Source of the DNA: an uncultured Thiodictyon sp.
GTDB lineage: Bacteria > Pseudomonadota > Gammaproteobacteria > Chromatiales > Chromatiaceae
Direction: 5' to 3'
NCBI RefSeq assembly: GCF_903946935.1
Contig: NZ_CAJAXH010000222.1
Coordinates: 19,365 to 83,364, forward strand
DNA length: 64,000 nucleotides
Made by a program: the position numbers and the translations under genes. The first letter of the stretch is position 1. Every line of letters starts with the position of its first letter. Under the pieces are notes generated by a model that worked only from the letters and a program-made list of their open reading frames with translations, had not been told where the DNA came from and did no database searches. Positions 35,865 to 45,977 of this stretch are shown here, in pieces.

Positions 35865-37115
35865 ATGTCCAGTTCCGATAGTTTTGAAGACCTCTTGAAG
35901 CAGTTCAACCAGGGCCAGCCGGCGAAGCAGGCCGAGCCCAAGGTGGGCGAGAAGGTGCGCGGCACCGTCGTGGCCATCGGCGAGGACTGTGCATTCATCG
36001 ACTTAGGCGGCAAGACCGAGGGGCGGATGGACTTGGCGGCCCTGCGCACACCCGAGGGTGAGCTCAAGGTCGCCGTGGGCGACGCAATCGAGGCGGCGGT
36101 GACCGGCAAGGACGCGGACGCCGGTTTTCTCCTGCTCGGCAGCCAGCACGGCCACAAATACCACGGTATGGAGGAGGTACGCCAGGCCTACCACCAGGGC
36201 CTGCCGGTGCAGGGTCAGGTGACCGCGGCCGTGAAGGGCGGGGTGGAGGTCCTGATTGCGGGGACACGCGGCTTTTGCCCGGGCTCCCAGATCGATATTC
36301 GCTTTGTCGAGGACCTGTCCGAGTTCGTGGGTCAACGGCTCGACTTCCGTATCACCAAGATCGAGGGCGGTCGCCGGCCCAATCTGGTGGTCTCGCGCCG
36401 CGCCATCCTCGAGGAGGAACAACGCCAGCGCGCCGCCGAGACCCGTGCTCAGCTCAAAGAGGGTGCGACACTTCCGGGAATCGTCACCAGCATCAAGGAT
36501 TACGGTGCCTTCGTTGACATCGGCGGGATCGAGGGCATGATCCATATCAGCGAGCTCGCCTTCGGCCACATCAAGCACCCGAGCGAACTCCTGACCCAGG
36601 GCCAGGCGGTGGAGGTGGCGATCTTGCGCATCGAACCGTCCAAGGACGGCAAGGGGCGCGACAAGATTGCGCTGTCCATCCGCGCACTGTCGCGCGACCC
36701 CTGGGCGGACGCCGTGGAGAGCTTCCCGGCCGGCACGCGGGTCACCGGCACCGTCAGCCGCCTCCAGCCCTTCGGCGCCTTCGTGGAGTTGGCCCCCGGG
36801 GTGGATGGGCTGGCGCATATCAGCGAACTGGCCGCCGGGCGGCGGATCAACCACCCGAGCGAGGTGCTGAACATCGGTGACAGCGTGGAGGCGACGGTGC
36901 TGGGTGTCGACATGGAGCGGCGCCGGATCAGCCTGACCCTGGATGCCTCCAAACAGCCCTCCGACATCCCGGATGTGAGCAACTACGCCGCGCCCAAGCC
37001 GGGCGCCAAGAAGGGGCCCGGCACCGGCGCGGCCAAGCCCGCCGACGCGGCGCCCGAGCCGACCATGGGCAGCTTCGGTGCCTTGTTGCAGGAGAGCATG
37101 AATAAGCGGCGGTGA
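35865..37115 (+). CDS. S1-repeat RNA-binding protein (ribosomal protein S1-like)
   Basis: The protein has 416 residues from ATG 35865; the track's N-terminus is promoter sequence. Four S1 (OB-fold) repeats can be seen, starting at about residues 26 (VGEKVRGTVVAIGEDCAFIDLG), 108, 193 (GIVTSIKDYGAFVDIGGIEG) and 280 (GTVSRLQPFGAFVELAPGVDG). The tail is Ala/Pro/Lys-rich. True S1 has six repeats and about 560 residues, so this is a shorter paralogue. It probably binds mRNA during translation or turnover. The DUF29 gene overlaps its stop. Confidence 0.82.
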   Translation: MSSSDSFEDLLKQFNQGQPAKQAEPKVGEKVRGTVVAIGEDCAFIDLGGKTEGRMDLAALRTPEGELKVAVGDAIEAAVTGKDADAGFLLLGSQHGHKYHGMEEVRQAYHQGLPVQGQVTAAVKGGVEVLIAGTRGFCPGSQIDIRFVEDLSEFVGQRLDFRITKIEGGRRPNLVVSRRAILEEEQRQRAAETRAQLKEGATLPGIVTSIKDYGAFVDIGGIEGMIHISELAFGHIKHPSELLTQGQAVEVAILRIEPSKDGKGRDKIALSIRALSRDPWADAVESFPAGTRVTGTVSRLQPFGAFVELAPGVDGLAHISELAAGRRINHPSEVLNIGDSVEATVLGVDMERRRISLTLDASKQPSDIPDVSNYAAPKPGAKKGPGTGAAKPADAAPEPTMGSFGALLQESMNKRR

Positions 37116-37117
37116 GC

Positions 37118-37555
37118 ATGCAGCAGTCACTCTACGACCAGGACCTCTACGGCTGGGCCACGCAGACCGCCCGGCTGGTGCGCGAGCGGCGGTTTTCCGA
37201 GATCGACGCCGTCAATCTTGCCGAGGAATTGGAGTCCATGGGCAAGACTGAACTGCGTAGCCTGGAGAGTCGGCTGGTGGTGCTCCTGGAGCACCTGCTC
37301 AAGTGGCAGCACCAGCCGGAACAGCGCTCCAAGAGCTGGCGGCGCACCCTGATCGAGCAACGCAAACGGATCGGCCGGCTCCTGGACGACAGCCCCAGCC
37401 TGCGGCCCAAGCTGCCCGAACTCTTGGCGGATGCCTACGACAGTGCGCTGCGCTGGGCGGCGGATGAGACCGGCATGGATGAAAGTGACTTCCCGCCGAC
37501 CTGCGGCTATTCGATTCAGCAATTGCTTGATGCGGATTATTATCCAGACACTTAA
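37118..37555 (+). CDS. DUF29 family protein
   Basis: The protein has 145 residues (ATG 37118; a GTG at 37112 is also possible). LYDQDLYGWATQTARLVRERRFSEIDAVNLAEELESMGK is the DUF29 signature, followed by LLVHLLKWQ-type helices (LLEHLLKWQHQPEQRSKSW). The family is all-helical, abundant in cyanobacteria and purple bacteria, and has no known function. Confidence 0.85.
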   Translation: MQQSLYDQDLYGWATQTARLVRERRFSEIDAVNLAEELESMGKTELRSLESRLVVLLEHLLKWQHQPEQRSKSWRRTLIEQRKRIGRLLDDSPSLRPKLPELLADAYDSALRWAADETGMDESDFPPTCGYSIQQLLDADYYPDT

Positions 37556-37561
37556 GATCGA

Positions 37562-38146
37562 TTGCTGATTGTGACCCAGATCCCTCTCCTGCTCACCCTG
37601 CTGCGCGCGGGGCTGGCGCCGGTTATCGTCCTGCTGGCGCTCTTTGCTCCGGTACCGGTCGCCTTCGCCGCCTGTCTGGCCGTCGCCGCGGTGTCAGATT
37701 ATTTCGACGGGGCCATTGCCCGGCGCCTGGACATCGTCACGCCGGGCTTGCGGCGACTCGATTCACTGGTGGACTTGCTGTTCCATCTGGCTGCACTGTT
37801 TGCGCTCTGGTGGCTGTACCCGCAGGTGATCATCCGGCATGCGGGACTCATCGCGGTGCTGGTCGGGCTGGGGGTTGCTCGGTATGGCTTCGCCTATGCC
37901 AAATTCGGCCGCGAGGCGAGCTATCACCTGTGGTCGTCGAAGGTGTGGGGATTCGCGCTGTTCCTTGCGTTCTATTCGCTGCTGGTCTTGCAGTCCGACG
38001 GGGTCTGGATCACGCTGGTGCTCTCGCTCGGTATCCTGGCGGGCTTGGAAGATCTGGCCGTCTCGCTGGTATTGCGGGAGTCACGCATCGATGTGCCGAC
38101 GGTTTTTCACGCTTGGCGCTTACGGAGTTGCGCCGGCGCCGGGTGA
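37562..38146 (+). CDS. CDP-alcohol phosphatidyltransferase family protein
   Basis: The protein has 194 residues (TTG 37562, or GTG 37571). The active-site motif reads SDYFDGAIARRLDIVTPGLRRLDSLVD, keeping all four metal/base Asp and the Arg; the usual Gly eight residues after AR is Leu. Six membrane helices are predicted. The enzyme would swap CMP on a CDP-alcohol for another alcohol in phospholipid synthesis. Substrates are unknown, and it is distinct from PgsA and PssA by eye. Confidence 0.8.
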   Translation: MLIVTQIPLLLTLLRAGLAPVIVLLALFAPVPVAFAACLAVAAVSDYFDGAIARRLDIVTPGLRRLDSLVDLLFHLAALFALWWLYPQVIIRHAGLIAVLVGLGVARYGFAYAKFGREASYHLWSSKVWGFALFLAFYSLLVLQSDGVWITLVLSLGILAGLEDLAVSLVLRESRIDVPTVFHAWRLRSCAGAG

Positions 38147-38159
38147 GCGGAGGACAGAG

Positions 38160-38453
38160 ATGATTGTTCGTGTTTTTCGCGTCACGGTGCCGCGTGCGCT
38201 GCATCTGGAATTCGAGGGCAAATTCCTGTCGGTCTCCATTCCGGCCGTCAGGTCTCAGCCTGGTCTGGTGTCGGTCACGGTTGGCCGCCCGACCCGTTGG
38301 GCGCCCGATGAATACGCCATGATTTCGACCTGGGAGGACGCGCGTGCCGTGGCAGCGTTTGCCGGTGCCGAGTGGCGCCGGGCCGTCATACCGGAAGGGA
38401 TGGAGCGCTATGTGGCGGACTGCTCAGTCCATCATTACGAGGTCTTTGGATAG
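38160..38453 (+). CDS. ABM-domain (antibiotic biosynthesis monooxygenase-like) protein
   Basis: The protein has 97 residues from ATG 38160 with GGAGGA upstream. MIVRVFRVTVPRALHLEFEG begins the dimeric alpha-beta barrel, PGLVSVTVGRP and YAMISTWEDARAVAAFAG are typical of the second half. The family includes quinone- and haem-modifying enzymes and many of unknown role. It lies 13 bases after the CDP-alcohol transferase gene. Confidence 0.75.
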   Translation: MIVRVFRVTVPRALHLEFEGKFLSVSIPAVRSQPGLVSVTVGRPTRWAPDEYAMISTWEDARAVAAFAGAEWRRAVIPEGMERYVADCSVHHYEVFG

Positions 38454-38464
38454 GCTCGCTCTTC

Positions 38465-38565
38465 ACCCGCCGCCGCGCTCTCGGCCGGTGCCGCCGGCCA
38501 GGTGATGCACAGCCCTTCAATGGTCGCGACCGCGGTTTCACCGATCAGCGCCCCCAACATTTTGG
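38465..38565 (-). pseudogene. Uma2-type nuclease C-terminal fragment, copy 1
   Basis: The minus strand encodes ALIGETAVATIEGLCITWPA, nearly the same as ALIAETAVATIDGLCIIWPV at the end of the longer fragment at 39513-39760. It is about 85-90 percent identical in DNA and in the same orientation. Only the C-terminal tail of the Uma2 (DUF820) fold remains. Confidence 0.65.
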
Positions 38566-38603
38566 GCCTAGCGCCAGCGAACCACGGGAGTCGCAGGGCG
38601 GCG

Positions 38604-38634
38604 AAACAGTTCCGGACGGGGCAAATGCCCCAGC
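38604..38634 (-). repeat. Hairpin repeat family H, copy D
   Basis: The reverse complement reads CTGGGGCATTTGCCCCGTCC and then GGAACTGTTT, matching copy C at 27537-27575. It lies just past the stop of the PIN-like toxin gene. Confidence 0.55.
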
Positions 38635-38640
38635 GTTGAC

Positions 38641-39117
38641 TCACTTCTCCCCCGCAATGTCGATTACTGTCGCGATCAGATCGCTGGACAGATAAAGCTC
38701 GGAAGCGGATAGCTGCCGGACATAAGGCTTGACAGCGTCGATCAATCCCGCCTGTTTCGCAGCCAACAATACGCCCAATGATCCAATGATCTCAATGCCG
38801 TTGATTCTCGCGACTCGCCGCCCACGCCGGTCATCGATCAGTAGCCGGTCCGCGGCCAACTGTCGATACAGAATCATCGCTTGCGTTTCGCCCAGATCCG
38901 AAACACCGTCCAGCAGAATCGGGTAAGACGGGTCGATCATTTTGACGCGGCCCTGGAGATACTCCTTTAACTGCCTGGCTTGCGGCTTATCGCCGATCAC
39001 GGCTTCGAGATAAACCGCCTCGGGGACGACGACCGCACCGAACAGACGGTCTAAGAGATGCAGCCCATGGCATGTCGCTAAGGCGATTAAGGCAGAGCAA
39101 TCCGCGACCAGGATCAT
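38641..39117 (-). CDS. DUF3368/PIN-like toxin
   Basis: The protein has 158 residues. ILVADCSALIALATCHGLHLLDRLFG gives the PIN-type first Asp, VYLEAV the acid at strand 2, and LLIDDRRGRRVARINGIEIIGSLGVLLAAK is the DUF3368 signature, with an acidic DD. It is expected to be an RNase toxin. The start overlaps the UPF0175 gene by 4 bases. Confidence 0.85.
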   Translation of the reverse strand: MILVADCSALIALATCHGLHLLDRLFGAVVVPEAVYLEAVIGDKPQARQLKEYLQGRVKMIDPSYPILLDGVSDLGETQAMILYRQLAADRLLIDDRRGRRVARINGIEIIGSLGVLLAAKQAGLIDAVKPYVRQLSASELYLSSDLIATVIDIAGEK

Positions 39118-39368
39118 TGGGTTCGTCCGATTGACTGCATTTCCTGGATGAGCTCATCACGGGAGATGTCAATAACGGGAATCCGCTGTGCCTTGCAGAC
39201 GGCAATGAACTCATAGATATTCATTCCCGCCAGTTCTGCGGCCTTGGCAAGCGTGACCCGAGTATCCTTGAACAAGGCCAGCGCGTAGGTCATCCGCATT
39301 TCCCGCGCGACGACATCCTGTGTCAACATCCCGACAAAATCATTGGGAAGATCGACAGCCACTTGCAT
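39114..39368 (-). CDS. UPF0175 family antitoxin
   Basis: The protein has 84 residues. The segment MTYALALFKDTRVTLAKAAELAGMNIYEFIAVCK contains the UPF0175 helix-turn-helix (ALxLYxxGxISLxxAAELAGMSxxEF). UPF0175 and DUF3368 genes are known partners. The antitoxin comes first, as usual. The gap 39369-39512 contains no gene. Confidence 0.85.
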   Translation of the reverse strand: MQVAVDLPNDFVGMLTQDVVAREMRMTYALALFKDTRVTLAKAAELAGMNIYEFIAVCKAQRIPVIDISRDELIQEMQSIGRTQ

Positions 39369-39512
39369 GATTTGACCTCGCTTGTGGTTATATAAAAAAA
39401 TCGCCGGTACCGGGCGTTGCGGCGGGCGCCGACGCCTGGGCCAGGCGGGTAATCTTGGGCCAGATCTGTACCCGACCGTTATCCGCCATGGCCTCGTTCG
39501 CGCGCTTCCTGA

Positions 39513-39760
39513 CTAACCCGCCCCCGCGCTCTCGGCCGGCGCCACCGGCCAAATGATGCACAGCCCATCAATGGTCGCAACCGCGGTTTCAGCGATCAGC
39601 GCCTGCACCTCGGGGCGACCGTAGGCCCCGTCCACGAGCCGATAGACCATCAGCGTCCGGTCGGTGGGGTGGACCAGCCAATATTCCCGCACGCCGGCCC
39701 GCTCGTAGGCATCGCGCTTCTCGCGATGGTCCCCGGCGGCGGTGCGCGGGGACAGTACCT
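39513..39760 (-). pseudogene. Truncated Uma2 family endonuclease, copy 2
   Basis: The open frame reads VLSPRTAAGDHREKRDAYER, then GVREYWLVHPTDRTLMVYRL, and ends ALIAETAVATIDGLC...SAGAG. This is the C-terminal half of the Uma2/DUF820 restriction-endonuclease-like fold, including EYWLVHP. The N-terminal half with the first catalytic residues is missing; the homology breaks at about 39757, beside a 9-bp tandem repeat. It is therefore not functional. Confidence 0.75.
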
Positions 39761-39769
39761 GTGGTCTGT

Positions 39770-39798
39770 CCCTGATTGCCCTGATTGCCCTGATTGCC
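39770..39798. repeat. Short tandem repeat, 9-bp unit
   Basis: CCCTGATTG is repeated three times and followed by a partial unit. It lies exactly between the Uma2 breakpoint and the AT-rich block, so it may mark a recombination junction. Confidence 0.7.
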
Positions 39799-39806
39799 CT
39801 CAGTCA

Positions 39807-39865
39807 GGCACCAAGCGGAAAACGTGCTTCGCTTGGTCCCTTATTGCCGGATGCCTATGTTAGCT
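39807..39865 (-). other. Hairpin with attC-like core after the GTPase gene
   Basis: On the minus strand AGCTAAC follows the TGA stop directly, resembling an attC R'' core (one mismatch to RYYYAAC). About 18 bases on, GGGACCAAGCG pairs with CGCTTGGTGCC (one mismatch). No matching GTTRRRY core follows, so it is a truncated attC or simply a terminator-like hairpin. Confidence 0.35.
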
Positions 39866-41692
39866 TCATCTTTCGGTAAGGACTCTTCCCCAAGCAGACG
39901 CAATATGACGAAGCAAAGCATTGTGAATGGCGATTGACTCCGCTGAGCTTGTCCAAGACTGCCAGTGCGCAACGACTCGATTCTTATATCCAGGCCCTTG
40001 ACCCCATTCCGCTTCCATTGCCCGCCATATAGAGAAAAACGTCTTTACCTGCTCGACCCAGTGCTGCTTCGCCAGATCTCCCACGAAAGTGGAGAAAGCG
40101 CTCAACTGGGCAACGAAATCACATTCTAACGAGTCGACCTGATTCGTGAATTCGGGATATTTTCCTTTCAAGAGCGACAAGCCATCCTTGATGTACTGGG
40201 CTTCTCCTTGGCAAAACGAAACAGCATAGGTACGCGCAAGCTGGTTGATTGCCTCATACACATCAAGATTTACAAAAGAGCCTTGCCGATCTATGCTAGC
40301 GGCTAGCCTCCTGTGGTGTGTTCCCGAGAATACTTTGCCTATGTACTCGCCGAACGGTTTCCAATCCGGCGCATGAGCGTCGGCCCTTGTCCGCCAGTCA
40401 GCGACGAGTGTGTCTACGTCGCGTTTGAATGCTGAGACCTTGTCCCCCTCAGCCGATAGAAGTTCTTGCGATGCGGACACAAGCCTCGTCAGGTCGTTAA
40501 GCTTGCTATTGATGTAGGCAGATCTTCTCTCTTCCAGTACTCGCCAAATCTCCGATCCATGATCTATGCGGCTGTCAAATGTAATGACGTTTGGGGAAAT
40601 CCTGTAGTCATGGGAAATTTTGGTTGCAACCTGATCCTCCCGAATGCTGCGGCCAATGCCTTTTCTGTCGTGGATATCGGTTATATCCTCGTCGATATCT
40701 GCAACTTTATCCGACTCATCTTTATCCAAGATCAAAAGCGTTGCGTCACGCGCAATGCGGTTTCCAAGCCCGAGGCTTATGGCGAGGTCGAAAAAAGATC
40801 TACAGTCGGCGTCCGGCGCGTCGACAAAGGTCGAGCAAACTATAGGAAATATTCCCTCTGTATCAAGGATAGAGCGAATGTCCTCCCTGTGTATGTACGA
40901 GTCGATCCCTCTTGTATCAATTATCGACCAAGTTTGATCGCCTCGCTTTAAGGGAAAAGGACCACAAATCGTTATGAGCGACGGAATAGATACTTTGCTG
41001 TTCTTACCGTCGTTTATGCGAGCAAATGTCTCCTTGAGCCAGTCTTTCCACGCTTCCGCTTCTTCGGGGCTTGGCCACAACTCGGTTTTTGTTCTGCTCT
41101 CCAGCGCAAGGCAGGCATACATCAATTCGTCGACTTCCTCGACGGAACTGCAGTTCCTCGAAAATTCTAATGCCTTATCTGTGGAGCGCCACCTGCCATC
41201 CTCCTTCCTCTTTTCGATCGTGAGGCCAAGCATATTTCTGATGCAGCGAGTGAGTTCTTCACTTAAGAGGTTTCCGCCCTCATCTTCGTCAGAGACGTGC
41301 TTGTTTGCCTTTGCCCAGATAAACTCGGCAAAGTGTCTTACCACTCGCCGAACCTCATCACTGGATAGAGGATCAATCTTTATAGAATACTTCGTGGCAT
41401 ATTCAATCCTAACCTCACAAACGGTGACGCGACCCGCGCCTGTCTTGAGGAGATCAACAACCTCTTTATTATTAGATAGAGATTGAAGATCTACCGCCCT
41501 GCATATAGCAGAGGTCTTTCCCGCGCCGATCTTTCCTACAAACGCCGCGCGATAGTTAGTCTGATCCATATCAGCGCGAATCTTTATAATCGCAGTCTTG
41601 TTTTCGGTGAGTTGTGCCGAAACCTCCGCATTGACACTTGAGACAAGGTACTCTTCGATCTCAGCCAACAACTGATCTGCTTGCTCTTTCAT
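39866..41692 (-). CDS. Dynamin-like P-loop GTPase-type protein of unknown function
   Basis: The protein has 608 residues. FVGKIGAGKTS (53-61) is the P-loop. GAGRVTVCEV (85-94) is placed like the switch I threonine of dynamin-type proteins, WSIIDTRGID (256-264) is a DxxG switch II, and LLILDKDESDK (319-329) may stand in for the N/TKxD guanine motif. The N- and C-terminal parts are helical. Base composition differs from the neighbours: bases 40561-40620 have 25 G/C of 60, against roughly two thirds nearby, and codon use follows. There is no membrane helix. Large P-loop proteins of this build are often anti-phage or membrane-remodelling factors, but no family is recognised. It starts 34 bases after an attC-like site. 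Confidence 0.6.
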   Translation of the reverse strand: MKEQADQLLAEIEEYLVSSVNAEVSAQLTENKTAIIKIRADMDQTNYRAAFVGKIGAGKTSAICRAVDLQSLSNNKEVVDLLKTGAGRVTVCEVRIEYATKYSIKIDPLSSDEVRRVVRHFAEFIWAKANKHVSDEDEGGNLLSEELTRCIRNMLGLTIEKRKEDGRWRSTDKALEFSRNCSSVEEVDELMYACLALESRTKTELWPSPEEAEAWKDWLKETFARINDGKNSKVSIPSLITICGPFPLKRGDQTWSIIDTRGIDSYIHREDIRSILDTEGIFPIVCSTFVDAPDADCRSFFDLAISLGLGNRIARDATLLILDKDESDKVADIDEDITDIHDRKGIGRSIREDQVATKISHDYRISPNVITFDSRIDHGSEIWRVLEERRSAYINSKLNDLTRLVSASQELLSAEGDKVSAFKRDVDTLVADWRTRADAHAPDWKPFGEYIGKVFSGTHHRRLAASIDRQGSFVNLDVYEAINQLARTYAVSFCQGEAQYIKDGLSLLKGKYPEFTNQVDSLECDFVAQLSAFSTFVGDLAKQHWVEQVKTFFSIWRAMEAEWGQGPGYKNRVVAHWQSWTSSAESIAIHNALLRHIASAWGRVLTER

Positions 41693-41725
41693 TTTTTGTG
41701 CGGACCCTTCAGGCGAATATTAGGA

Positions 41726-41815
41726 GACTAACGTTTTCCACAGCCGACGCCATACGGCGGCCGGAACGGTTGCGGATGCCGCAGTATGGCGTCGGCGCTG
41801 ATACAATGGTTAGCC
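41726..41815 (-). other. attC-like integron recombination site
   Basis: On the minus strand this 90-base palindrome runs GGCTAAC - 12 nt - GCCGACGCCATAC - 28-nt centre - GTATGGCGTCGGC - 10 nt - GTTAGTC. The 13-bp arms are perfect. The outer cores each match the attC consensus (RYYYAAC and GTTRRRY) with one mismatch. The arm begins GCCGACGCC, as in the aadA attC. The TAA stop of the upstream gene (41810-41812) is inside GGCTAAC, which is usual for cassette genes. Size is in the attC range (about 57-141). No integrase or second full site is visible. Confidence 0.55.
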
Positions 41816-42505
41816 ATAATCATGTCCGCTGTCCGATAATATGCGGCTGGCGAAACCTGTGTATGCCCAGCGGACACAATGCTTCGTGCTTGATTTATGG
41901 ATCAAAAAGGCAAAGGGCAGAGAAATCTTTGCGTTCTGATCGTACTCGAAAATAATTTGCCAACCATCCAAGTCCATATCCTCCCATCCGTCAGGCATGC
42001 GGGCTGGTAGGGCCTTTCCGAGCATGCTCAATGAAATGGTTTGCCCTTCTGGTATTGCTTTATCTCTAATGGGAAAGCGAGCATCCGTGATGCCCTCAAT
42101 CACATGCTTCGCAGCGTCGTCGTCCATTCCCAATAGATCTTGCTCCTGGAAGGGGAGCGCGTTCGCTATCAACATGCCTGTTTTTGTGTAAAGAGGGCCT
42201 TGGTTCTCGTCAAATAAAGCGTTAGATTTGGCTTTGAGCCAAAGCCGTTTAAGCGTGTGTGAGCCGTTGTTGGCGGTGATTGTTAGGTTGATCTGGAAAA
42301 AATAATCGCCCGAGTCGATGCGCTTGACAGCCGCTTTGTCAACGTTGATTGCAAGATCGCTTCTTATGAGAGCCAGGCTGTCGTTTTCTTTCGGTAATTT
42401 CCTTTTCGAAAGTTGCGATTTCACAAAATAGACAAATACGGTGATAACGGTTATCCCAGCTCCACTGAAGAGCCACTCCTTGTTGTCCGCGATCCAGGTC
42501 ATCAT
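41810..42505 (-). CDS. Membrane-anchored protein of unknown function
   Basis: The protein has 231 residues. One membrane segment near the start (LFSGAGITVITVFVYFV, about 13-29) is followed by a basic stretch (KSQLSKRKLPKE) and a soluble, probably beta-rich domain of about 190 residues (FFQINLTITANNGSHTLKRLWLKAKS; WQIIFEYDQNAKISLPF). No family is recognised. Codon use and lower GC match the GTPase-type gene downstream and not the flanks. Its stop codon lies in the attC-like site. The two genes may act together at the membrane, which is inference from position only. Confidence 0.6.
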   Translation of the reverse strand: MMTWIADNKEWLFSGAGITVITVFVYFVKSQLSKRKLPKENDSLALIRSDLAINVDKAAVKRIDSGDYFFQINLTITANNGSHTLKRLWLKAKSNALFDENQGPLYTKTGMLIANALPFQEQDLLGMDDDAAKHVIEGITDARFPIRDKAIPEGQTISLSMLGKALPARMPDGWEDMDLDGWQIIFEYDQNAKISLPFAFLIHKSSTKHCVRWAYTGFASRILSDSGHDYG

Positions 42506-42861
42506 TTTGTAGAGGTCAAGCTTGGCGTTCGATAGCTAATGTGGCGCCTAAAGCGGCGCGGGGGTAAAGGGACTAAGGTCAATTATTTTTACGACGCTCC
42601 GGACCAGTCGCCCTGGCCATACCCGCCTCGGGTACAGTTGCAGGTGAAAATAAACCTCGCTCGACCACCTGTCAAGCCACGCAGAGAAAATCCGTTCATT
42701 CCGGGGTATGTTAAGAAACTTAACGAACCAGGCGGTAGGCTCTCCTTTAACCGCTGGATGGCGATCCGGACCGGGCAGTCCATCGTCGCCCATTCCGACC
42801 AGCGGCCTCGGTCATGGTTCCGGCCACCCCGCTGTATTCTGCGCCTCCGTGCTGACTGAGA

Positions 42862-42905
42862 GATTGCCGTCCCTGGTCTGGATTTCGGTATCCCGGCCGG
42901 AATGA
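42862..42905. repeat. Dispersed intergenic repeat, copy 3
   Basis: It has the CTGGATTTCGG and CCCGGCCGGAATGAAGG core of the copies at 12246 and 16257. It marks the return to high-GC host sequence beside the AT-rich block. The rest of 42506-42960 holds no supported gene. Confidence 0.5.
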
Positions 42906-42966
42906 AGGCGCAGCGCTGGCAGGAACGACGGCCTTGATCATCATCCCGGGCACCTGCCTCCGCCAA

Positions 42967-43034
42967 TGTAGGTCGCCCTTTAGGGTGACCAGCCTTCCGT
43001 GCTGTCGGGTGGTCGCCCTGAAGGGCGACCTACA
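42967..43034. repeat. Inverted repeat with nested hairpins
   Basis: TGTAGGTCGCCCTTTAGGGT opens and AGGGCGACCTACA closes a long palindrome; each arm also folds on itself (GCCCTTTAGGG and GCCCTGAAGGGC). It looks like a REP pair. Confidence 0.6.
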
Positions 43035-43090
43035 TCCACCCGTGGCCGGGTCATGATCAAGGCCGGAACGACGATCAAGGCCGCCAGCGG

Positions 43091-43432
43091 CTATGCCGCT
43101 TTCAGCATGAACTCGACATGGACCACGTCATAGGGAAACAGCAAGGCCCCGTCGGCGGTCTTGTCGATGACGCCACTCTGCACCAGCACCTGTGCGTCGG
43201 TGTGAACGCCCTTCACGTCACGCCCAACCCGCCGCGCCAGCTCGCGCACCCCGAGCGGACCGGCCCCGGTCAGCGCCTTGAGGATTACCCAGCGGTTGGC
43301 CGTCAAGGTGGACCACAGGTCCTCGTGACTGGGGAAGGTGATGAAACAGCCCTGAGGCTCACCCCGGAAAGCGGCCTTCATGCGCTGCATGGTGGTCTCG
43401 GTATCGGCAACTTCGATCGTGACAGTGGTCAT
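43091..43432 (-). CDS. Winged-helix DNA-binding protein (antitoxin-like, HVO_A0114 type)
   Basis: The protein has 113 residues from ATG 43432. RWVILKALTGAGPLGVRELARRVGRDVKGVHTDAQVLVQSGVI is a MarR-like winged helix. Small proteins of this kind are often antitoxins paired with an upstream DUF6516 toxin. The 50 bases before the start encode FRFADDFWADVAQL and a stop, which resembles such a toxin's C-terminus, so the partner may be lost. The gap 43433-43608 shows nothing else. Confidence 0.65.
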   Translation of the reverse strand: MTTVTIEVADTETTMQRMKAAFRGEPQGCFITFPSHEDLWSTLTANRWVILKALTGAGPLGVRELARRVGRDVKGVHTDAQVLVQSGVIDKTADGALLFPYDVVHVEFMLKAA

Positions 43433-43608
43433 GGATGCCTCACAGTTGGGCAACATCGGCCCAAAAATCATCAGCGAAACGAAACCGGAGCGACGACGAC
43501 GCACACCCCCCGCGAGAGTGGGCGAGGCTCTCGCGAGGACCCAACGGCGCTTCGCGCCGTCGCCGACAGGCTGTCGGCGCTCCCAGGCGCGGCGGGGTGT
43601 GGAACGAT

Positions 43609-44160
43609 CTAATCGTCTTGCTGGTGGGACGGATCGGCGACCGGTACAGCATCCGGCGCAATGGCTGCTAATAACCCCCGCAGCAGTTCCAATGGCGCCG
43701 GCGGGCAGCCCGGAATCTTCACATCCACCGGAATGACGTTCTCCACAGCCCCGCGGCTGGCATAGGAGACGCCGAATTCGCCGCCGTCGCAGGCGCAGGT
43801 GCCGGCGGCGATCACGAGTTTCGGCACCGGGGTCGCCTGCCAGGTGCGGCGCAAGGCCGTTTCCATGTGGCGGGAGACGGGGCCGGTCACGAGCAGTGCA
43901 TCGGCGTGGCGCGGGGAGGCGACGAAGTGCAGGCCGAAGCGCTCCAGGTCGTAATAGGGGTTGTTGAGCGCGTGGATCTCCAATTCGCAGCCGTTGCAGG
44001 ATCCCGCATCGACCTGGCGGATGGCGAGGCTGCGCCCAAGCCGGGCATGGACGTGGCGCCGCAGTTCGATACCGAGCCGTTCCAGCTCTGGGTCATCGAT
44101 GGCGGGTGGCGCCTCGGTGATGACGCCGGTTTTCAGTGATTGCTGGAGGATACGAAACAT
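43609..44160 (-). CDS. hyfI: HyfI/NuoB-like small subunit of a hydrogenase-4-related complex
   Basis: The protein has 183 residues from ATG 44160. SCNGCELEIHALNNPYYDLERFG, GTCACDGG and PGCPPAPLELLRGLL supply the four Cys of the single [4Fe-4S] cluster next to the active site (N2 in complex I). Sequence and size match HyfI/HycG. It would pass electrons to or from the large subunit. The MITE-like repeat separates it from hyfG, yet the strand and order match an operon. Confidence 0.85.
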   Translation of the reverse strand: MFRILQQSLKTGVITEAPPAIDDPELERLGIELRRHVHARLGRSLAIRQVDAGSCNGCELEIHALNNPYYDLERFGLHFVASPRHADALLVTGPVSRHMETALRRTWQATPVPKLVIAAGTCACDGGEFGVSYASRGAVENVIPVDVKIPGCPPAPLELLRGLLAAIAPDAVPVADPSHQQDD

Positions 44161-44188
44161 GGTGCCTTGATCCCAGAAAGAGCAGTTG

Positions 44189-44318
44189 TCACGCCAAGGC
44201 GCCAAGCCCGCCAAGCCTTTTCAATGCGCTATCGGCGTCCCCCGTTTCACCTGCCGGGTGACGCTGACCGCTTGGCCAGCCTATTGCTTTTCTTGGCGTG
44301 CTTGGCGCCTTGGCGTGA
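44189..44318. repeat. MITE-like repeat, copy 2, between hyfG and hyfI
   Basis: This 130-bp element has the same 18-bp terminal inverted repeats as the copy at 31146-31274, the same AGAAAGAGC left flank, and a related internal ACCTGCCGGGTGA hairpin. It fills the gap between two genes that are normally adjacent, so it inserted into the hyf operon. Confidence 0.75.
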
Positions 44319-44336
44319 GCAATCGCGGATTGAGGT

Positions 44337-45977
44337 CTAGAGGTCCTCGCCCGAATAGGACCCATTGACCGATTTGTTGCACACCGGGAAGTCCGGGACG
44401 ATGTTCCCTAAAATCAACTGCTCCAGGGCCGGCCAGGTGAACCAACTCGGGTCGCGCGGGAAAAAGCGCGTGATGCGTCCGTCGGCACCGAAGCGCACGA
44501 AGGTCATGATCTCCCCGCGCCAACCGTCGACCAGCCCGAGGCCAACGGCCCCGGGCGGCGCCGGGGGCAGCGGCGCGGTGGTCTCGCCCGCGGGCAGGGT
44601 CATGAGCAAGCGGTCCATCATGACCAGGCTTTCCTGAATCTCGCTCATGCGCACCCGCACCCGGGCGGCGACATCGCCCTCGCGCTCCTGTGGCACCACC
44701 ACCTCCAGCCGGTCATAGGGCGGGTAGGGGCAGTCGCGGCGCACATCGAAGGGCAGGCCGCTGGCCTTGCCGACCGGGCCGGTGCAGCCGAGCGCCCGCA
44801 CCTGCGCGGTGCTCAGGCGCCCGGTGCTGATCAGGCGATCATTGAGCGACGGGTGATCGTCGATGACGTCGAACAGCGGTATGGCCGCCCGCCGCAGCGC
44901 GGTGTGATCGGCGAGCAGCAGCGCCGGCGCCTCTGCTGTCAGGTCCCAGGCCACGCCGCCGGGGCAGATGGCGTCCATCATCAGCCGGTGTCCGAAGAGT
45001 GCGCGGCTGCGCCGTTGCCACAGTTCGCGCAGGCGGGCGCACTGCATGTGGGCGAAGCCAAAGCCCACGTCGTTACAGATCGCACCGATATCGCCCAGGT
45101 GATTGGCGACGCGCTCACGCTCGGCCATCAGTGCGCGCAGCCAGTCGGCGCGCGGCGGGACGGCGCCGCCGGTGGCGCGCTCCATGGCCTGACAGGCGGC
45201 CCAGGTGTGGGCGACCGTGGAGTCGCCGCAGACCCGCGCGGCCAGCCGGGCGAGGGCGGCCGGGTCGCGACCCACTGCAATCTTCTCGATGCCTTTGTGG
45301 ACATAGCCCAGGCGCTCCTCCAGGCGCAACACGTCCTCGCCCATGGCCTGGAAGCGGAAGTGTCCGGGCTCGATGATGCCGGCGTGGACCGGGCCTACCG
45401 GGATCTCATAGACCCCGCTGCCCTGGACCTTGGGGAATGGGTAATCGGCGTCGGCGCCGACGTGGCGTACTGAGCGGCCGGCCGTCGGGAAGTCGGTGCG
45501 TAGCGGAAACTCGCCCTCTTCCCAAGCCTGGTGACGGGTCCAGCGGCGCGGATCCGGGTGGCCTTGAAAGGTCACCCCGGTCAGGTCGTGGCAGTGGCGT
45601 TCCAGGCGGGCGAGCCCCGGGAAATGGGGGGTCTGGGAGGGCAGGACTGGCTGGTCTAGCGGGACCGCGGTCTCCAGCACCACATAGCCACCCTGGTACT
45701 CCAGGCAGGCGTAGACGGCGATGCCCTGGGGGTCCGGCGTGGAGTCCGCGCCGGTGGCGACCCGGGTGACGATGCCGGCGCCCTCCGAGGGATCGGCCCA
45801 CATCCCCACATGGCGCAGCCCCATCCGCGCCGCGACCTTGGCCGCGTTGCCCCAGTCCTCCGGGTCCAGCACCAGTCGCTGGGCCGGTGCCAGCACGGCC
45901 TCGTCACCCGAATGGGCGAGCAGGTGCTCGGCCGCCAGCCGGGCCAGAAAATCCGGGAGCCAGTCGAGTCTGCTCAT
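44337..45977 (-). CDS. hyfG: HyfG/NuoCD-like large subunit lacking NiFe-site cysteines
   Basis: The protein has 546 residues from ATG 45977 (GGAG upstream; ATG 45992 also possible). An N-terminal NuoC-like part (YVVLETAVPLD to DPRRWTRHQ) is fused to the NuoD-like part (GPVHAGIIEPGHFRF; LGYVHKGIEK). In HycE-type hydrogenases the nickel ligands are RxCGxC and CYSC. Here the first reads RVCGDS (one of two Cys kept) and the last reads SYSG in NGSYSGEDL. The NiFe centre therefore cannot form as in hydrogenase. It should be a structural or quinone-like module in a proton-pumping complex with another substrate. Confidence 0.82.
   Translation of the reverse strand: MSRLDWLPDFLARLAAEHLLAHSGDEAVLAPAQRLVLDPEDWGNAAKVAARMGLRHVGMWADPSEGAGIVTRVATGADSTPDPQGIAVYACLEYQGGYVVLETAVPLDQPVLPSQTPHFPGLARLERHCHDLTGVTFQGHPDPRRWTRHQAWEEGEFPLRTDFPTAGRSVRHVGADADYPFPKVQGSGVYEIPVGPVHAGIIEPGHFRFQAMGEDVLRLEERLGYVHKGIEKIAVGRDPAALARLAARVCGDSTVAHTWAACQAMERATGGAVPPRADWLRALMAERERVANHLGDIGAICNDVGFGFAHMQCARLRELWQRRSRALFGHRLMMDAICPGGVAWDLTAEAPALLLADHTALRRAAIPLFDVIDDHPSLNDRLISTGRLSTAQVRALGCTGPVGKASGLPFDVRRDCPYPPYDRLEVVVPQEREGDVAARVRVRMSEIQESLVMMDRLLMTLPAGETTAPLPPAPPGAVGLGLVDGWRGEIMTFVRFGADGRITRFFPRDPSWFTWPALEQLILGNIVPDFPVCNKSVNGSYSGEDL

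Follow-up and report, generated by a model that had tools for sequence, protein, structure and literature searches.

In the 64,000-nucleotide stretch of the genome of an uncultured Thiodictyon sp. analysed here (contig NZ_CAJAXH010000222.1; the whole stretch is called the window below), two neighbouring AT-rich genes encode P0001, a large dynamin-like P-loop protein, and P0002, a small near-orphan protein (Table 1). P0001 is placed downstream of P0002 on the common minus strand with 117 nt between them, and the open reading frames (ORFs) lie exactly at 39866-42505, the span given by a first-pass annotation made from the letters alone, whose count of 25 G or C in the 60 nucleotides at 40561-40620 is likewise exact. 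The GC content of P0001 and P0002 is 49.3% and 47.8%, respectively, compared with 64.5% for the whole window, and at third codon positions it is 53% and 57%, compared with 78-87% in three flanking genes. Pfam and NCBIfam gave no significant match for either protein, in agreement with the earlier reading, which recognised no family for them, and PADLOC returned only weak partial matches (LeoA, E 0.01; PDC-M43A, E 1e-4, confined to the membrane helix of P0002).

The structure of P0001 was predicted with AlphaFold2 using 23 sequences, and the resulting model (predicted local distance difference test, pLDDT, 88.7; predicted template-modelling score, pTM, 0.69) consists of short N-terminal helices, a G-domain and a long C-terminal helical stalk (helices 380-607). 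The top 50 PDB matches of this model are all members of the dynamin superfamily (Foldseek; probability 1.00, best E 2.2e-9), among them SynDLP (2.2e-9), a bacterial dynamin pair, MxB, BDLP, Drp1, IniA and mitofusins. The viral structure library yielded dynamin-like proteins of giant viruses. By its predicted fold P0001 is thus clearly dynamin-like, as it had been labelled at first pass. The P-loop, switch-like and DxxG motifs reported there were also recovered, since the P-loop (G1; GKIGAGKT, residues 53-60), the switch-I Thr90 and DTRG (259-262) vary little or not at all among the 17-23 homologues aligned, and the sequence makes GTP the likely nucleotide. Matches to housekeeping GTPases (FtsY etc.) in a phmmer search were insignificant. 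P0001 lacks an N-terminal helix-turn-helix (HTH) domain, and a hydrophobic paddle or membrane segment is not evident from Kyte-Doolittle hydropathy (maximum 1.15 over 19 residues), a measure that does not cover amphipathic binding.

Homologues of P0001 were collected by tblastn on plasmids, by family-alignment scans of genome and viral contigs, and by a class and a phylum search, together yielding about 40 members with 21-29% identity. The plasmid search contributed 19 records, 17 of them covering at least 80% of P0001 (22-29% identity), the contig scans 23 more loci, one shared with the plasmid set, and the class search one further homologue. The phylum search with the full alignment returned mostly ordinary HTH genes, from which only the three matches spanning the P-loop region were kept. 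Family alignments were required for the contigs, as single-protein scans gave no matches for P0001 in genome_contigs and viral_contigs or for P0002 in viral_contigs; P0001 had zero matches among phage records. The hosts are mainly Alphaproteobacteria, joined by Citrobacter, Janthinobacterium, a cyanobacterium and a metagenome-assembled genome of the Chloroflexota, and many homologues are plasmid-borne, many others lying on long genomic contigs that are not known plasmids. Most carry an additional N-terminal XRE-type HTH domain of about 100 residues (HTH_31 in 13 of 17), which is absent from P0001, from two HSDR_N-linked members and from the AAA_21-fused members described below. In the tree, a weakly supported branch (74/73) has the HTH-bearing members to one side of it. 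The dynamin-like part went unrecognised by the profile libraries searched (Pfam and PADLOC, with NCBIfam for P0001), so the family would be expected to be missed by profile-based defence finders. A literature search, with most subscription papers and most preprints outside its reach, retrieved no description of such a family.

The link of the large protein to defence, proposed at first pass, is supported by the neighbourhoods in which its family sits. A manual count at the 12 annotated plasmid loci found defence-type genes (restriction-modification, toxin-antitoxin, HipA, DUF262, phosphorothioation-associated, helicase/AAA or nuclease) within about 6 kb of the homologue in ten, with L006 and L009 as the exceptions. 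Around 19 genome or viral homologue loci, 75 neighbour proteins matched 132 PADLOC families at E values up to 1e-15, whereas 68 control genes of the Thiodictyon genome analysed here, taken from outside the P0001/P0002 site, matched a single one, mad3. Neighbours matching at 1e-70 or better include PtuA/PtuB (Septu), HamA/HamB (Hachiman), GajB (Gabija), SspD, a type IIG restriction-modification protein and MzaA, and DpdB was also among the defence components matched. Where a locus had no annotation, its ORFs were called mechanically, and some of the small ones are spurious.

The co-directional genes immediately downstream of the homologues, in some cases candidate effectors, vary from locus to locus. 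An HSDR_N_2 (PD-(D/E)XK-type) gene follows in Pseudanabaena, after a gap of 1 bp, and in a gammaproteobacterium; elsewhere we found a DUF4917 gene (Pfam 5e-72; PADLOC PDC-S21, 1.5e-124), a DUF3800 gene, a DUF262 gene (HEC-05/NsnA/SspE-like), or a gene for an unknown protein together with one for a metallo-beta-lactamase fold protein. Three homologues (L070 145-3156, L071 and L072) are fused at their C-terminus to an AAA_21 ATPase resembling HEC-01A/AriA (E 1e-24 to 3e-32). A conserved small gene, starting RIKLIVTGDMEK, follows all three, and fusion and small gene form a candidate two-gene defence system.

Regarding the role of P0001, we give about even odds to its membership in a bacterial family of dynamin-like NTPases that has no name yet and serves defence against phages or other mobile DNA; its foreign composition and its absence from seven congeners support an acquired defence gene. 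A further-reaching proposal, which we put forward tentatively and consider the less probable of the two, is a widespread, undescribed class of bacterial immunity in which a dynamin-type GTPase, held on DNA by a fused XRE domain, would be the sensor or switch behind interchangeable effectors (nucleases, DUF4917, AAA_21-type ATPases), with P0001 as a free, HTH-less branch. The gene structure, the homology, the dynamin fold of the model, the defence neighbourhood of the family and the variable partners are established here; which nucleotide is used, what triggers the protein, how it assembles and releases an effector, and that it defends the cell at all, we infer as follows. The G-domain would bind nucleotide, most likely GTP, the helical stalk would self-assemble, and a trigger derived from the invader would alter the state of the nucleotide or of the oligomer. 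Relatives that have an XRE HTH at the N-terminus would be tethered to DNA, where they may also act as repressors of their own promoters; the switch would then release or recruit an effector, adjacent or fused (nuclease, DUF4917 or AAA_21/AriA-like ATPase). Because P0001 has neither an HTH nor an obvious membrane paddle, it would probably be a free cytosolic switch or act directly.

Several observations weigh against this defence interpretation. The control for defence enrichment was drawn from one genome only, and P0001 forms a long lone branch of unsure placement, so that traits of its HTH-bearing relatives may not transfer to it. Over the full length, TM-scores against dynamins are only 0.2-0.35, as would fit a different arrangement of the domains; the fold match is clear, but the subfamily is not fixed. 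The G4 motif departs from the canonical [N/T]KxD of guanine specificity (LDKDES in P0001, LPRGDEA in relatives), which makes GTP specificity uncertain. Finally, about half of the homologues stand without a close co-directional neighbour, and an effector partner would therefore be optional rather than obligatory.

The same fold matches could instead describe a classical membrane-remodelling dynamin, like BDLP, the membrane-stress dynamin DynA, IniA or LeoA, that repairs or tethers the membrane without being specially tied to phage defence. IniA, described as a drug-induced dynamin for membrane fission (PMC6715688), offers a precedent. Yet no hydrophobic paddle or membrane segment is evident from the hydropathy of P0001, DNA-binding HTH domains in relatives would be odd for a membrane machine, and the homologues cluster strongly with defence genes; we consider this explanation unlikely. 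Somewhat less probable still is an HTH-dynamin family made up mainly of plasmid-maintenance, DNA-segregation or transcription-regulating NTPases of mobile elements, whose proximity to defence genes would result from shared islands and plasmids. The plasmid-borne members, the HTH domains and the solitary half of the family would suit it, but the AAA_21 defence-type fusion and the adjacency to nuclease and DUF4917 genes are untypical of maintenance genes, and for many members the surrounding DNA is a long genomic contig, not a known plasmid.

In P0002, residues 10-28 near the N-terminus form its one hydrophobic stretch (Kyte-Doolittle 1.64); after it come a positively charged segment and a predicted cytoplasmic beta-rich domain, in line with the membrane helix and soluble domain described at first pass. 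The single-sequence model of P0002 is of low confidence (pLDDT 43) and was kept out of the fold search. Membership of PDC-M43A was rejected, the weak match covering the membrane helix alone. Relatives of P0002 are scarce: one on a Nostoc plasmid with 26% identity, one weak match among 274 class genomes, and two partial matches besides itself when a three-sequence profile was run against 399 genomes. The idea that P0001 and P0002 are a true functional pair, in which P0002 would act as membrane-anchored effector or recruiter translating an infection signal into membrane damage, can appeal to their common strand, short spacing and common foreign composition, to the promoter-like site upstream of P0002, and to a Sphingomonas homologue of P0001 (L052) whose overlapping downstream gene encodes a strong N-terminal membrane helix in a sequence unrelated to P0002. 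Against this, a P0002 relative lies beside P0001 homologues at none of 41 loci (0/41), neither of the two P0002 relatives examined elsewhere adjoins a P0001 relative, the partners of other homologues are downstream rather than upstream, and the two genes have an attC-like palindrome between them, so that we regard a functional pair as improbable. By the criterion set at first pass, that homologues never co-occur, its two-gene pair fails, while its defence-linked dynamin survives. P0002 is probably a chance neighbour and not a conserved partner: a passenger unrelated to P0001 or, at the most, a membrane effector that was recruited locally.

The palindrome between the genes resembles an integron gene cassette junction, with the P0002 stop codon inside the GGCTAAC box, then the hairpin, then GTTAGTC. 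The R''/R' boxes pair at all seven positions, counting G-T, by energy density only two other distinct sites of this type in 836 kb are in its class, and on inspection by eye the arms look like those of attC sites in class 1 integrons. The attC weight-matrix score of 18.0 compares with 15.9-48.1 for known sites when left out and with a background of up to 25.8, and the matrix alone is not decisive. A dispersed repeat was rejected, as the genome contains no second copy of the palindrome, and so was an intrinsic terminator, as it is not among the terminator-like sites and has no T-tract. What differs from integron cassettes is that this is a lone complete site, that the unpaired positions are non-canonical, and that the integrase gene is on another contig without attC; neither a second complete attC site nor a nearby intI was found. 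P0001 itself also ends in TGA-AG-CTAAC (39850-39870, minus strand), like the left half of another attC site. The integron-type integrase gene (L045 159-1538, contig C31 of the same genome, G000) encodes a 459-aa tyrosine recombinase (427 bits with the integron-integrase model); its neighbours are ATP synthase genes, and its surroundings are free of attC-like sites. Whether P0001 and P0002 are separate integron cassettes is, in our estimate, evenly balanced; probably they are two cassettes or other independent acquisitions rather than a co-evolved pair.

The chromosomal setting is that of a variable insertion site. In one congener (G663) the same flanks are separated by only about 150 bp, in three others they enclose 3.9 kb (G660), 8.1 kb (G661) and 7.9 kb (G658), and P0001 is absent from all seven congeners examined; since the site is near-empty or differently filled there, P0001/P0002 looks like a recent arrival. 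Other conflict-type genes occupy the same site in relatives. G660 has contractile tail sheath and tube genes there (L106 1450-3888), and the module of G658 and G661 (L107 271-8135, L108) encodes a MinD/ParA-like ATPase, an AAA_16-type ATPase and a possible ADP-ribosyltransferase-like protein, the last recognised by eye and with no Pfam match. The toxin-antitoxin and nuclease genes that the earlier reading placed nearby correspond to a toxin-antitoxin-type UPF0175/DUF3368 pair and a broken gene for a putative Uma2 nuclease just downstream of P0001. A second Uma2-like C-terminal remnant was recognised by eye at about 38435-38580 (minus strand), and the two remnants bracketing the UPF0175/DUF3368 pair suggest that the region was rearranged repeatedly. 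Near the broken-Uma2 junction, a short way downstream of P0001, a 13-nt direct repeat occurs in three copies with a 9-bp period (39770-39800), and an inverted repeat of 29 nt (GTAGGTCGCCC...) at 42966-43035 is probably a dispersed palindromic element.

Table 1 Features of the P0001/P0002 locus and its surroundings (window coordinates).
Feature	Position	Strand	Basis or remark
P0001, dynamin-like P-loop protein, 608 aa	39866-41692	-	ORF, motifs, predicted structure
P0002, 231 aa, near-orphan	41810-42505	-	ORF, hydropathy; partner status not supported
attC-like element: GGCTAAC, hairpin with 19-nt arms, GTTAGTC	41726-41815	-	Between P0001 and P0002
Promoter-like site TTGACA-17-TATTTT, best sigma-70-like match of the region	42647-42675	-	Consensus match only; upstream of P0002
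Variable insertion site holding P0001/P0002	38140-43663	.	Flank comparison with congeners
CDP-alcohol phosphatidyltransferase-like gene, one flank of the site	37562-38146		Named by eye from sequence
Hydrogenase small-subunit-like gene, other flank of the site	43609-44214		Named by eye from sequence
Uma2 (PD-(D/E)XK, putative restriction endonuclease), C-terminal remnant	39540-39740	-	Uma2 8.7e-12, profile positions 109-153 of 172
UPF0175 protein, antitoxin-like	39114-39368	-	
DUF3368 protein, PIN-like toxin partner	38641-39117	-	

Among known systems, the bacterial dynamin-like proteins SynDLP, BDLP1, the DLP1/2 pair and IniA share the G-domain and long helical stalk predicted for P0001, from which they differ by an identity of only 9-12%, by the lack of an evident paddle and the non-canonical G4 in P0001, and by the XRE HTH of its relatives. 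Eleos (LeoABC), the dynamin-like defence system in PADLOC, also ties a large dynamin-like protein to defence; however, it combines LeoA with a split or fused LeoBC, all of them dynamins, whereas P0001 is the only dynamin-like ORF in 37000-45500 and has no LeoBC gene beside it. Membership of Eleos was rejected, the LeoA match (12.9 bits, E 0.01, best stretch residues 3-63) being far too weak. The DO-GTPase/GAP1 conflict systems follow a similar general logic, in which effector genes can be exchanged around a GTPase core, but consist of GTPase dimers with a GAP1 protein, for which no match was seen at the P0001 locus, and dynamins are not mentioned in the paper describing them (PMC7159879). The AAA_21/OLD-type defence ATPases (PARIS AriA, HEC-01A, Septu PtuA) are connected through the fusions in three P0001 relatives; the domain is absent from P0001 itself, and the dynamin-like half is the new element.

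In animals, dynamin-like proteins are central to antiviral defence (Mx proteins and guanylate-binding proteins, GBPs), whereas in bacteria they are known as membrane machines. If the proposed role is true, dynamins of defence islands with DNA-binding domains and varied effectors would join the antiviral and the bacterial roles of this fold, which would be used on DNA rather than on the membrane, and the family would offer a tractable test of the dynamin fold as an immune switch away from membranes.
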